A stretch of DNA of 64,000 nucleotides from Ornithinimicrobium sediminis (lineage in GTDB: Bacteria; Actinomycetota; Actinomycetes; Actinomycetales; Dermatophilaceae): contig NZ_JAJSDQ010000002.1 in NCBI RefSeq assembly GCF_021272345.1, forward strand, positions 372,001 through 436,000. Direction: 5' to 3'. The notes under the pieces were generated by a model that did not search any database, was not told the DNA's origin, and saw only the letters and a list, made by a program, of their open reading frames with translations. The position numbers and the translations under genes were made by a program. This document shows positions 8,189 to 25,261 of this stretch, piece by piece. The stretch's first letter is position 1; every line of letters starts with the position of its first letter.

Positions 8189-8204
8189 TTGACGTTAACG
8201 TCAA
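8189..8204. promoter_or_regulatory. Perfect 16-bp palindrome, probable MerR/LiuR-type operator
   Basis: TTGACGTTAACGTCAA is its own reverse complement. It lies between the MerR gene (start 8094) and the acyl-CoA dehydrogenase (start 8246), inside the promoter region: a TTGACG at 8160-8165 and the palindrome's own TTGACG are both candidate -35 elements. It resembles the TTGACGT-type palindromes assigned to LiuR regulators; the assignment rests on form and context. Confidence 0.6.
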
Positions 8205-12935: not shown

Positions 12936-14618
12936 TCAGAGCTCGTCCAGCAGCGCTGCCCGCAGGGTGTCCAGCCCCACCCCGCCGATGTCGAGCGCGC
13001 GGCGGTGGAAGGCCTTCAGGTCGAAGGCGTCACCCTCGCGGCGTCGCAGCTCGTCGCGGAGCTCGAGCCACAGGCGCTCACCCACCTTGTAGGACGGCGC
13101 CTGGCCGGGCCAGCCCAGGTAGCGGTCGAGCTCGAACCGCACGAAGCCCTCGTCCATGTTGACGTGGTCGTTGAGGAACTCCCAGGCCTTGTCGTAGGTC
13201 CACTCGCCGCCGCCCACCTCGTCGGGGGCCTCGAAGCCGCAGTGCACCCCGATGTCGAGGACCACCCGTGCTGCCCGCAGCGACTGGCCGTCCAGGAGGC
13301 CCATCCGCATGCCTGGGTCGTCCATGTAGCCGAGGTCGGCCATGAGCCACTCGGCGTAGAGCGCCCAGCCCTCGCCGTGCCCCGAGGTGAACGAGGCCAG
13401 CCGGCGCCAGCGGTTGAGCAGGCTGCTGCGGTAGACGGTCTGCCCGATCTGCAGGTGGTGACCGGGGACGCCCTCGTGGTAGACGGTGGTCAGCTCGCGC
13501 CAGGTGCTGAACTCGGTGAGGCCCTTGGGCACCGACCACCACATCCGGCCCGGCCGGCTGAAGTCCTCGGAGGGAGCCGTGTAGTAGATGCCGCCGGTCT
13601 GGCTGGGTGCGATCAGGCACTCGATGCGACGGATGGGCTCCGGGATGTCGAAGTGGACGTCCCCGAGGTCGGCGACCGCCTCGTCCGCCTTGACCTGCAT
13701 CCACTCGCGCAGGGCCTCGGTGCCGTGCAGCTGGTAGCGCTCGTCCTGGTCCAGCAGCGCGACGGCCTCCTTCACACTGGCGCCGGGGCGCACCCGGTCA
13801 GCCGTCTCCTCCATGAGAGCGGTGATGCGGGCCAGCTCCTCCTGCCCCCAGCGGTAGGTCTCGGCGAGGTCGATGTCCGCGCCGAGGAAGCTGCGCGACA
13901 TGAGCCGGTAGCGCTCCGTGCCCGCGGCGTCGGAGACGGGGGCATCGTCCAGGAGCTCCTCGGTGAGGGCCTGCGCCAGACGACCGTATGCCGCACAGGC
14001 GGCGTCGACCGCCGCGGACAGGTCGTCCCGCAGCTCCTCGTCCTGCCCGCCCGCCTCACTCAGGAGCATGCGGAAGGTGCTGTCCGCACCGGCCTGCTCC
14101 CGGCACTGCTCGGCGACCTTGTCGACCTGGCGGCGGGGGGCGATGGCTCCTCGGTCGGAAGAGTAGCGCAGCGCCGAGGCGTACTGCTCCAGCGCGACCG
14201 GGACCGCCCGCAGCCGGGCCGTCACGACACCCCAGTCGGCGGCGTCGTCCTTGCGCATGAGGTCGAAGATGTCGCGCACAGCCTGGACGGGCGAGGCGAT
14301 GACGTTGAGCTCCATGGGGTCGACGCCCTGCAGCATCCGCTCGCCGGTCTCGACCTCCAGCCCCAGACGCTCGCGCAGCGCCGCCACGGTGACCCGGTCG
14401 ACGTCGTCCACCGGGTCGGCACCGTCCAGGGCGTGCAGGGTCCGCCGGGCCAGGTCGACGCGCGCGCGCACGCCTTCGATGGACAGGTCGTCGATGCGGT
14501 CGTCCGCCCCGGGCACCCCCAGGTAGGTCGCCTCCAGCGGGCTCAGCTCCACGGAGGTGTCCAGGTGGGCATCGGCGATGCGGTCGATCTCGGTCCGGTC
14601 TCGGGTCTGCTCGGTCAC
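12936..14618 (-). CDS. DUF885-family metallopeptidase-like protein
   Basis: This 560-residue, mostly helical protein carries the DUF885 signature VYHEGVPGHHLQ, an HExxxxH-like zinc motif, and a conserved downstream Glu context (GHGEGWALYAEWLM). There is no signal peptide, so it is cytosolic. DUF885 proteins are related to M32/M3-like peptidases, but few are characterised. The start is GTG at 14618, exactly 7 bases from the -10 hexamer TACGTT; longer upstream extensions would run through the divergent MOSC gene. Confidence 0.85.
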   Translation of the reverse strand: MTEQTRDRTEIDRIADAHLDTSVELSPLEATYLGVPGADDRIDDLSIEGVRARVDLARRTLHALDGADPVDDVDRVTVAALRERLGLEVETGERMLQGVDPMELNVIASPVQAVRDIFDLMRKDDAADWGVVTARLRAVPVALEQYASALRYSSDRGAIAPRRQVDKVAEQCREQAGADSTFRMLLSEAGGQDEELRDDLSAAVDAACAAYGRLAQALTEELLDDAPVSDAAGTERYRLMSRSFLGADIDLAETYRWGQEELARITALMEETADRVRPGASVKEAVALLDQDERYQLHGTEALREWMQVKADEAVADLGDVHFDIPEPIRRIECLIAPSQTGGIYYTAPSEDFSRPGRMWWSVPKGLTEFSTWRELTTVYHEGVPGHHLQIGQTVYRSSLLNRWRRLASFTSGHGEGWALYAEWLMADLGYMDDPGMRMGLLDGQSLRAARVVLDIGVHCGFEAPDEVGGGEWTYDKAWEFLNDHVNMDEGFVRFELDRYLGWPGQAPSYKVGERLWLELRDELRRREGDAFDLKAFHRRALDIGGVGLDTLRAALLDEL

Positions 14619-14623
14619 GGTCC

Positions 14624-14640
14624 CGAACGTACTACGTTCG
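14624..14640. promoter_or_regulatory. Symmetric divergent leaderless promoter shared by the DUF885 and MOSC genes
   Basis: CGAACGTA-C-TACGTTCG is a perfect 8+1+8 inverted repeat. Each arm contains TACGTT pointing outwards. The left one ends 7 bases before the GTG at 14618 (minus strand) and the right one 7 bases before the ATG at 14646 (plus strand). Both genes therefore appear to be driven by one mirror-image element. Confidence 0.6.
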
Positions 14641-14645
14641 TCGGC

Positions 14646-15314
14646 ATGGCGAGTGCTCGGATCAGGTCGGTCAACACGGGGCGGGCCCACCCCATGCCGG
14701 AGGCCTCCACGGGGGTGACCGGCATCGACACGGCACCCGTGCGGTCCATCGAGGTGCGCGCCCCTGGCCCCAAGCGGGACGGCGGCGGCAGCGGCGTGGC
14801 CGGTGACGTCATCGGCAACCTGCGGCACCACGGAGGCGACCAGCAGGCCGTGTATGCCCTGGCGCGGGAGGAGCTGGACGCCTGGTCGGCGGAGCTCGGC
14901 CGCGACCTGCCCGACGGGATGTTCGGCGAGAACCTCACCACGGAGGGCATCGACGTGGACGCCGCCGTCCTGGGACAGCGATGGCAGGTCGGTGACCGGG
15001 TCGTCCTGCGGGTCTGCGGGCCTCGCATCCCGTGCCAAACCTTCGCCGTCCGGATGGGGGAGCCGGCGTGGGTGCGCCGCTTCACCGAACGGGGCCGACC
15101 CGGGGCCTACCTGGCGGTGGAGGTGCCCGGCACCCTGCGCCCGGGTGACCCGGTCGTGCCCGGCGAGCCGCCGCAGCACGGTCTGGACGTCATGGACGCC
15201 TTCGCGGCCTTCATGGGGGAGCGGGACCTGGCGGCCGCACTCCTGGTGGCCGGCTGCCTGCACCCGGACGACCACGCCGAGCTCGAGCGCTCGCTCCGCC
15301 GGCGCAGCCACTGA
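14646..15314 (+). CDS. MOSC-domain protein (YiiM-like)
   Basis: This 222-residue MOSC-domain protein shows the invariant Cys in the segment RIPCQTFAVRMGEP and the upstream GGDQQAVYALAREELDAW and FGENLTTEGID motifs of the YiiM branch. MOSC domains bind molybdenum cofactor or sulfur; YiiM-type proteins in other bacteria take part in reduction of N-hydroxylated compounds with partner reductases. No molybdenum enzyme is encoded nearby. Its ATG at 14646 is 7 bases from the mirror-image promoter shared with the DUF885 gene. It is convergent with the subtilase, separated by a 15-bp terminator hairpin. Confidence 0.88.
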   Translation: MASARIRSVNTGRAHPMPEASTGVTGIDTAPVRSIEVRAPGPKRDGGGSGVAGDVIGNLRHHGGDQQAVYALAREELDAWSAELGRDLPDGMFGENLTTEGIDVDAAVLGQRWQVGDRVVLRVCGPRIPCQTFAVRMGEPAWVRRFTERGRPGAYLAVEVPGTLRPGDPVVPGEPPQHGLDVMDAFAAFMGERDLAAALLVAGCLHPDDHAELERSLRRRSH

Positions 15315-23517: not shown

Positions 23518-23999
23518 GCGTCCCCGACGTGGGAGAACACGTAGGTGCGGTAGGCCCAGAACCGGAAGACGGTGCCCAGCACCAGGCCGATGCCGTTGGC
23601 GCTGACGTTGTCGGCGAGCTGGCTGTCCAGGCCGAGGACGTAGCGCGAGAAGCCCAGGCAGGCCAGGGCGATCGCCAGGCCCAGCACGTTGAACACGACG
23701 AAGAGCACGAACTCGTGCGACTTGCGGCTGCGACGCCGATGGCGGAAGGTCCAGTAGCGGTTGCCCAGCCACGCGAACACCATCGCGATCGCAGTCGCGA
23801 GGATCTTGGCACGCAGCGGGATGTCGTGCATCGGGCCCACCCCGGGGGTGCCCGGGACGCCGAAGACCACCAGGTTGTAGAGCGTGGTGTCGATGACGAA
23901 CGCGCCCAGCCCGATCAACCCGAACTTGCCCACCTCCAGGGCCAGCAGGTCGTAGACACCGCGGGCACGCTGCAGCAGGGTGGAGAACGGGCCGGGCAT
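23463..23999 (-). CDS. GtrA-family membrane protein
   Basis: This 178-residue protein has four hydrophobic segments in the GtrA pattern: GKFGLIGLGAFVIDTTLYNLV, AKILATAIAMVFAWLGNRYWTF, FVLFVVFNVLGLAIALACLG and SANGIGLVLGTVFRFWAYRTYVF. GtrA proteins are thought to flip or support polyprenyl-linked sugars used to decorate the envelope. A GtrA-like gene beside purK is also the mycobacterial order. The ATG at 23999 has TATGCT 6 bases upstream. The C-terminal tail overlaps the 3' end of the histidine kinase gene. Confidence 0.85.
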   Translation of the reverse strand: MPGPFSTLLQRARGVYDLLALEVGKFGLIGLGAFVIDTTLYNLVVFGVPGTPGVGPMHDIPLRAKILATAIAMVFAWLGNRYWTFRHRRRSRKSHEFVLFVVFNVLGLAIALACLGFSRYVLGLDSQLADNVSANGIGLVLGTVFRFWAYRTYVFSHVGDAQGAGAMETYSTNTAGDA

Positions 24000-24005
24000 T
24001 CTCGC

Positions 24006-24011
24006 AGCATA
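24006..24011 (-). promoter_or_regulatory. Leaderless-type -10 (TATGCT) for gtrA
   Basis: TATGCT ends 6 bases before the ATG at 23999. It is divergent from the purK element at 24024-24029, 12 bases away. Confidence 0.4.
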
Positions 24012-24023
24012 CGTCGTGGAGGC

Positions 24024-24029
24024 TAGGCT
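24024..24029 (+). promoter_or_regulatory. Leaderless-type -10 (TAGGCT) for purK-purE
   Basis: TAGGCT ends 8 bases before the GTG at 24038. It would drive the purK-purE operon. Confidence 0.4.
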
Positions 24030-24037
24030 GTGCGGTC

Positions 24038-25261
24038 GTGACTGGTGTGCCCGCGTCCGAGGACCCGAACCCGCCGCTGCGCGCAGAGGGGGGCTTCCCC
24101 GTCGTCGGCATCATCGGCGGGGGCCAGCTGGCCAGGATGTGCCAGCCGCCGGCCGTCGCGCTGTCGCTCACCCTCTCGGTGCTGGCCGAGACCTCGACGG
24201 GATCGGCGGCGCTGGTGGTGCCGCACAGCCCGGTCGGTGACCACGCCGACGTCGAGGCCGTGCGGGCCTTCGCCCGCTCGTGCGACGTCGTCACCTTCGA
24301 CCACGAGCACGTCCCTGCGCACGTGCTGCGGGCCCTTGTCGAGGACGGGACCAGCCTGCACCCCTCACCCGAGGCGCTGCTGTTCGCTCAGGACAAGCTC
24401 GCCATGCGCAGGCGGCTCACCGAGCTCGGCATCCCGTGCCCCCGGTGGTCCGCCGCGCGCAGCCAGGACGAGGTCCAGGCGTTCGGTGACCGGGTCGGCT
24501 GGCCGGTGGTCGCCAAGACCCCGCGCGGGGGCTACGACGGCAAGGGGGTGCGCCTGGTGCGCGCGGCCGCCGACCTGTCGGACTGGCTGGCCGTGGTCGG
24601 TGAGCCGGGGCCGCTGGCCGACGGCATCCTGCTCGAGGAGGCCGTCGGCTTCCGCCGCGAGCTGGCCGCTGTGGTCGCACGCAGCCCCAGCGGGCAGGCG
24701 GCGGCCTACCCCGTCGTGGAGACCGTCCAGACCGACGGCATCTGCACCGAGGTGCTGGCGCCGGCGCCGGACCTCGACGACGACCTGGCGGTCACCTGCG
24801 CCGAGGCCGCGCTGCGCATCGCCGGCGAGCTCGACGTGACCGGCATCCTGGCGGTCGAGATCTTCGAGGTGACCGACCCGGCGACCGGTGCCCCGGCATA
24901 CCTGGTCAACGAGCTGGCGATGCGCCCGCACAACAGCGGGCACTGGACCATCGACGGGGCGGTGACGAGCCAGTTCGAGCAGCACCTGAGGGCGGTGCTG
25001 GACCTGCCGCTGGGGCAGACCTCGCCGCGGGAGCGGTGGGCGGTCATGGCCAACGTGCTCGGGGGGGAGCAGCCCGACCTCTACCCCACCTACCGGCACC
25101 TCATGGCGCGCGACCCGGGGCTGCGGGTCCACCTCTACGGCAAGGGCGTGCGGCCGGGCAGGAAGATCGGCCATGTCACCGTGTACGGCGACGACCTGAC
25201 CCACCTGCGGGAGCGCGCCGGGCACGCTGCCGACTACCTGCGCGGGGTGATCGACGAGTGA
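24038..25261 (+). CDS. purK: 5-(carboxyamino)imidazole ribonucleotide synthase
   Basis: This 407-residue ATP-grasp enzyme makes N5-CAIR from AIR, ATP and bicarbonate in purine synthesis. Seen motifs are the N-terminal [13 protein letters not shown], the ATP-grasp loop [23 protein letters not shown], and [26 protein letters not shown], the PurK signature. The first ~20 residues ([18 protein letters not shown]) are a non-conserved extension; the GTG at 24038 is the only start matching the -10 element. purE follows 16 bases after the stop, the usual pairing. Confidence 0.94.

Follow-up and report, generated by a model that had tools for sequence, protein, structure and literature searches.

Two putative leaderless -10 promoters fill the 27-bp palindromic gap between divergent DUF885 and MOSC genes in Ornithinimicrobium sediminis

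The gap between a DUF885 gene and a divergently oriented MOSC-domain gene of Ornithinimicrobium sediminis most likely consists of two independent leaderless promoters of the TANNNT -10 type, which came to lie back to back by compaction of the gap, a reading to which we assign a probability of roughly 80%. The symmetry of the gap itself is probably incidental. The gene pair is located in a stretch of 64,000 nucleotides with a G+C content of 70-75%, in the following referred to as the window, which is part of a genome of 3.53 Mb in 16 contigs.

Results

Geometry of the DUF885/MOSC gap

The peptidase-like DUF885 gene (PF05960, E 8.9e-166) occupies positions 12936-14618 of the minus strand and starts with the GTG at 14618, and the MOSC-domain gene (PF03473, E 7.5e-36) extends on the plus strand from the ATG at 14646 to position 15314. 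According to a direct reading of the sequence, the intergenic gap comprises 27 bp (14619-14645), and a perfect 8+1+8 inverted repeat, which occupies 14624-14640 and reads CGAACGTA-C-TACGTTCG, is centred on the midpoint of the gap at 14632. The earlier note was thus right in describing a 27-base, exactly symmetric gap with perfect 8+1+8 arms; its term "mirror repeat" was wrong, as 14624-14640 is an inverted repeat. Both strands carry the hexamer TACGTT, at 14633-14638 on the plus strand and at 14631-14626 on the minus strand, in each case followed by a spacer of 7 nt and then by the start codon of the respective gene. The two hexamers do not overlap, with 1 bp between them, and the start codons are 28 bp apart. 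We regard the hexamers as the putative -10 boxes of the MOSC gene (14633-14638, plus strand) and of the DUF885 gene (14626-14631, minus strand), which, judged from the positions of the boxes, would place the leaderless transcription starts at 14646 and 14618, respectively. A simple sigma-70 scan counts against this assignment, since it reported no promoter on either strand, and the boxes are not accompanied by a recognisable -35 element. No -35 motif was found for M. tuberculosis promoters either, according to the accessible part of a transcriptome study (PMC3898074).

Conservation of the putative -10 boxes in relatives

In relatives, a box was defined as TANNNT located 5-9 nt before an in-frame start codon not more than 12 codons from the aligned start; this freedom in the choice of the start favours the finding of boxes, and the controls were given equal freedom. 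The DUF885 loci were taken from the best matches among 53 of the 58 genomes with a match, and the 30 loci read comprise the window genome, 26 others of the genus and three of other genera. All 30 carry the DUF885 box, one of them (L168) at the edge of the 12-codon range, and none does so when the spacer is shifted to 15-19, 25-29 or 35-39 nt or when the motif is reversed or complemented (0/30 in each control). For MOSC, 19 of 27 loci of the genus, the window among them, have the box, compared to 3, 1 and 0 of 27 at the same shifted spacers, 1/27 for the reversed and 0/27 for the complemented motif. With a spacer of 7 nt on both sides and boxes conserved along with their genes at these frequencies, both hexamers have the sequence properties expected of leaderless TANNNT promoters.

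The absence of the MOSC box from the remaining eight loci (L015, L019, L025, L026 and L028-L031) counts against a reading with two boxes. In the first four of these, the MOSC start lies close behind what reads like upstream coding sequence, and the MOSC gene may have joined an operon there, which could explain the missing box. The earlier note had stated that close relatives in which the gene pair persists but the hexamers are gone would speak against its proposal. Such a loss was seen in no case for DUF885, but among the 19 genus genomes in which the pair is divergent within about 900 bp, three lack the MOSC box (L028, L029, L031).

The boxes of the two genes differ in sequence. Before DUF885, the box is mostly TAGGTT or TAGCGT; before MOSC, CATACC[CG]T is shared by 9 of the 17 distinct relatives that entered the MOSC profile. 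This profile was built from 17 of the 18 boxed MOSC relatives (one duplicate dropped), and the corresponding DUF885 profile from 25 of 29 relatives (without one duplicate and three relatives from other genera). Even the nearest relatives compared are distant, with an identity of the MOSC protein of at most 58% within the genus and up to 60% outside, and of the DUF885 protein of no more than 77% along its entire length, or 79% along a part of it in genome G019. In the latter genome (locus L170), the match covers only query residues 127-560, and a further piece upstream is matched as well, pointing to a frameshift or to a fault in the assembly.

Leaderless-type boxes in the genome

We examined a genome sample of 864 kb, i.e. 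about 24% of the genome, which includes the window chosen beforehand. Within this sample, TANNNT is found at spacers of 6-9 nt in front of 99 of 743 genes, as compared to 1.84 per position at spacers of 15-59 nt, and the reversed motif is found in front of 15 genes. The peak of TANNNT in the genome together with the conserved boxes makes it likely, as far as can be judged from sequence, that leaderless messages are used by this genome in general and by the DUF885 and MOSC genes in particular. The claim of the earlier note that two outward-facing -10 boxes serve two leaderless genes is therefore well supported as a prediction, by position-specific conservation and by the genome-wide peak.

Both boxes were found in 13 of the 115 divergent pairs of the sample, where independence of the two sides would give about 9.5 (single-gene rate 66/230); thus, pairs with a box on both sides are not clearly in excess of independence. 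The reversed motif occurs on both sides in 0 of the 115 pairs. Pairs with both boxes are concentrated at short distances, i.e. there are 7 among the 23 pairs whose starts lie at most 60 bp apart, compared to 6 among the 92 wider pairs (Fisher p 0.0041), figures for which alternative boxed starts within 60 nt were allowed, a freedom which shortens some distances (with the control motif, 22 rather than 23 pairs are close). The start-to-start distances of the seven close pairs are 24, 28, 32, 39, 45, 48 and 54 bp. Allowing these alternative starts was also what recovered the DUF885/MOSC pair, as our home-made gene caller dropped the MOSC gene in one run and put its start at 14694 in another. In stretches of the relative G029, 3 of 45 pairs carry both boxes, including 0 of 7 close pairs, and the clustering at short distances was not seen there. 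Two further divergent pairs with TANNNT before both starts are located in the window at 1199-1244 and 23999-24038, with distances of 45 and 39 bp.

Gap length and symmetry across relatives

The distance between the two genes varies considerably among the 31 genus genomes. The pair is divergent with starts less than 200 bp apart in 12 of them (28 bp in the window, 36 bp twice, and 56, 63, 75, 80, 86, 107, 109, 167 and 183 bp), divergent at 511-902 bp in seven (G014 at 894 or 902 bp, depending on the start chosen) and divergent at 1.7-3.5 kb in another seven (G003, G012, G013, G016, G021, G027 and G028). In one genome (G009), the MOSC gene is present and DUF885 is represented by no more than a distant homologue, located on a different contig; in four (G004, G017, G020 and G022), the search for MOSC gave no match at E 1e-30. 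Both boxes accompany the gene pair at start-to-start distances of 36, 56, 63, 75, 80, 86, 107, 109 and 167 bp within the genus, and at 51-147 bp in seven loci outside the genus. Among the named loci, which are the best 80 of 584 relatives, seven show a DUF885 gene within the fetched flank, and in five of these (L062, L064, L065, L100 and L067, the latter from O. tianjinense) the two genes diverge at a start-to-start distance of 51-109 bp. The DUF885 gene has its box at every distance read, including 1.7-3.5 kb, and the MOSC box is found in three of the seven genomes with the genes this far apart (L018, L021, L023). Since the boxes are kept at 36-900 bp and, for MOSC in these three of seven cases, also at 1.7-3.5 kb, we conclude that each is tied to its own gene. 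Accordingly, the idea that one 17-bp repeat drives both genes holds insofar as the two boxes abut, but not with regard to a single shared element, as each gene has a box of its own.

The symmetry was found in none of the relatives tested for it. The test for palindromes was based on 15 gaps, i.e. that of the window and 14 others, leaving out gaps of at least 130 bp, duplicates and L171. A comparable repeat was found in 0 of the 14 other gaps, whose longest inverted repeats have 3-6 bp per arm, a length that for every gap was also attained in 566 or more of 2000 shuffles. The conserved symmetry for which the earlier note had proposed to align the gap in related genomes could thus not be confirmed.

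Within the window, perfect 8+1+8 repeats occur five times, compared to a mean of 3.4 and a largest value of 7 in 20 Markov-1 simulations, and repeats with 8-bp arms and spacers of 0-4 occur 31 times, compared to a simulated mean of 18. Perfect 8+1+8 repeats are hence common in such DNA, and therefore the length of the repeat alone means little; with the count in the window near the simulated mean, we dropped it as evidence. What counts against an incidental symmetry is that arms of 8 bases were reached in only 3 of 2000 shuffles of the 27-base gap, a figure qualified by the gap having been picked after the fact for its striking look. A further perfect palindrome of 16 bp, TTGACGTTAACGTCAA, which is A+T-rich for this sequence and a possible operator, is located at 8189-8204 of the window.

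The NAPRT/clpS pair

A tighter and, by sequence, more widely conserved example than DUF885/MOSC is the divergent pair formed by the genes for nicotinate phosphoribosyltransferase (NAPRT) and clpS. In the window genome, the start codons of this pair are 24 bp apart (L189:11162-11186, corresponding to G000 C9:551162-551186) and the two leaderless-type -10 boxes overlap by a central TA. We examined 59 loci from the genus, family and class of the window, which combine the best 30 of 55 and the best 30 of 112 matching genomes with the own locus in both. The pair is divergent in 53 of the 59 loci and not present in this form in the other six. Both boxes were found in 42 loci, and the remaining 11 pairs have the NAPRT box and lack the clpS box. 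Starts 23-25 bp apart with boxes sharing the central TA (ANNNTANNNT) are seen in 19 of the 59 loci, which bear four family labels (f1, f2, f27, f47). Titles and abstract openings listed from one open-licence collection gave nothing relevant on clpS in connection with NAPRT, leaderless messages or divergent transcription.

Alternative explanations of the palindrome

Among the alternatives, the one that survives best, rather doubtful as we consider it, is that the MOSC gene lost its own box by deletion and obtained a new promoter from an inverted copy of the DUF885 box, made by fold-back or template switching, so that the palindrome would be a scar. The arm on the DUF885 side indeed resembles some orthologues (CGAAC-N-TA in G010, G015 and G124), and the box on the MOSC side departs from the usual CATACC[CG]T. 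In an 11-position profile, it lies at +1.8 bits towards the DUF885 form, where 14 of the 17 MOSC boxes score -7.0 or less. However, the other three MOSC boxes (-2.5, -0.4 and +6.0) depart from the norm as well, a few point changes would give the same result, and the state before the proposed event was seen in no close relative. We are equally doubtful about an extended form, in which the birth of a promoter by such a copy, as the gap shrank, is combined with a recurrent actinobacterial class of gaps, where about 25 bp would constitute the whole core control of two genes with an exclusive orientation of the polymerase, and of which NAPRT/clpS would be a widely kept example.

It is less probable still, and on the whole unlikely, that a dimeric repressor, e.g. 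a TetR-like protein, uses the palindrome as its operator, by which it would cover both -10 boxes and co-regulate the genes. An odd-centred perfect inverted repeat is the usual look of a dimer site, and the repeat of 17 bp overlaps both boxes. Against this stand the single exact copy of the 17-mer in the genome, with three further sites at 2-3 mismatches and one site for the backward-read control pattern, the result for the 14 other gaps, and the three neighbouring genes tested, which encode a Maf, an FHA-domain and a subtilase protein and no regulator. As a main reading, the operator was dropped on these three grounds, i.e. no recurrence in the genome, no conservation and no regulator among the three neighbours. 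The LexA (SOS) box of actinobacteria consists of CGAAC/GTTCG half-sites with GAAC and GTTC 4 nt apart; in the DUF885/MOSC gap, GAAC and GTTC are 7 nt apart, and we do not assign the repeat to this class.

We see very little room for the proposal that the symmetry was selected as a switch, by which the DUF885 and MOSC genes exclude or balance each other. Hexamers and 7-nt spacers are identical on both sides, and the footprints of two polymerases must overlap when starts are 28 bp apart, resulting in a steric clash. We know of no functional link between the DUF885 and MOSC proteins, and nothing relevant on a link or on divergence of the two genes appeared in the titles and abstract openings listed from one open-licence collection. 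In addition to the missing symmetry in all 14 other gaps, members of the genus differ widely in the distance between the genes, with values between 28 bp and 3.5 kb, and this variation argues against selection for mutual exclusion. Furthermore, in E. coli, according to the available part of the work of Warman et al. 2026 (PMC12825309), all five of the five bidirectional promoters tested had a basal activity too low for competition, which can appear once one direction is activated. By analogy, mutual exclusion at the DUF885/MOSC gap would be possible but is not expected at rest. The mutual exclusion which the earlier note had envisaged thus keeps its steric basis, but nothing indicates that exclusion was selected.

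Hardly more credible is a chance palindrome that has no promoter function, with the start sites located elsewhere. In its favour are the perfect 8+1+8 repeats that DNA of this kind should contain by chance, and that no -35 element was found; the position-specific conservation of TANNNT for both genes with clean controls, and the TANNNT peak before starts in the genome sample, argue against it.

Discussion

The preferred reading, i.e. two independent leaderless promoters brought together by compaction, can be pictured as follows. Each gene would possess one TANNNT -10 box of the actinobacterial type, independent of the other and placed such that transcription would begin on the start codon or directly beside it; both messages would thus probably be leaderless. 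In relatives, each box appears to belong to its own gene, with the boxes further apart; in this species, the gap would have shrunk until the boxes touched, and with both boxes happening to read TACGTT, the gap would have become a palindrome. RNA polymerase could not occupy both boxes at once, and a strong promoter on one side might therefore interfere with the other. The DUF885 and MOSC genes are probably expressed independently as long as activity stays at the ordinary basal level, as suggested by the behaviour of the E. coli promoters.

If both genes are indeed leaderless, the DUF885/MOSC gap illustrates the degree of compaction open to a divergent control region of such genes: without a 5' leader or a visible -35 element, two -10 boxes can fill the entire gap. 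It also shows that a striking symmetry can be incidental. For competition of polymerases at a shared -10 element between two actinobacterial mRNAs, NAPRT/clpS is the better test case.

Bidirectional promoters have been described as a shared -10 element with starts around or within it at a distance of 7-25 bp from each other (PMC10268837, as far as the text is accessible), with 18 bp as the commonest distance and 10 and 23 bp also common (PMC12825309, likewise in part); the 23-bp spacing of NAPRT/clpS is one of these common distances. The DUF885/MOSC gap resembles the promoters of Warman, Grainger and colleagues in its opposed -10 boxes, which are too close for two polymerases, and in its symmetric sequence. 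It differs from them in the larger distance between its predicted starts, 28 bp, and in its non-overlapping hexamers, and it therefore falls outside the strict definition (7-25 bp, shared -10), by 3 bp.

Among actinobacteria, TANNNT about 12 bp before the start has been reported to mark leaderless genes (Zheng 2011, PMC3160421, in the accessible part). The DUF885 and MOSC genes match these TA-led genes, with a TANNNT whose first T lies about 12 bp ahead of the start codon; the accessible text of that study treats genes singly, whereas DUF885/MOSC is a divergent pair. A query for leaderless genes, bidirectional promoters and divergent transcription together gave no match in the open-licence collection. 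Close relatives of the arrangement are those of M. tuberculosis, whose transcriptome study calls closely juxtaposed divergent promoters a common feature and includes a leaderless divergent pair, PrpD/Rv1129c (Cortes 2013, PMC3898074, in the part available). Like these pairs, DUF885/MOSC combines TANNNT without a conserved -35 element, divergent genes and, by prediction, leaderless messages. Unlike them, it has a gap of 27 bp, in which identical abutting boxes form a palindrome, and its starts are deduced from sequence. Juxtaposed divergent leaderless promoters are thus already known, and the DUF885/MOSC gap is probably a new case of them.
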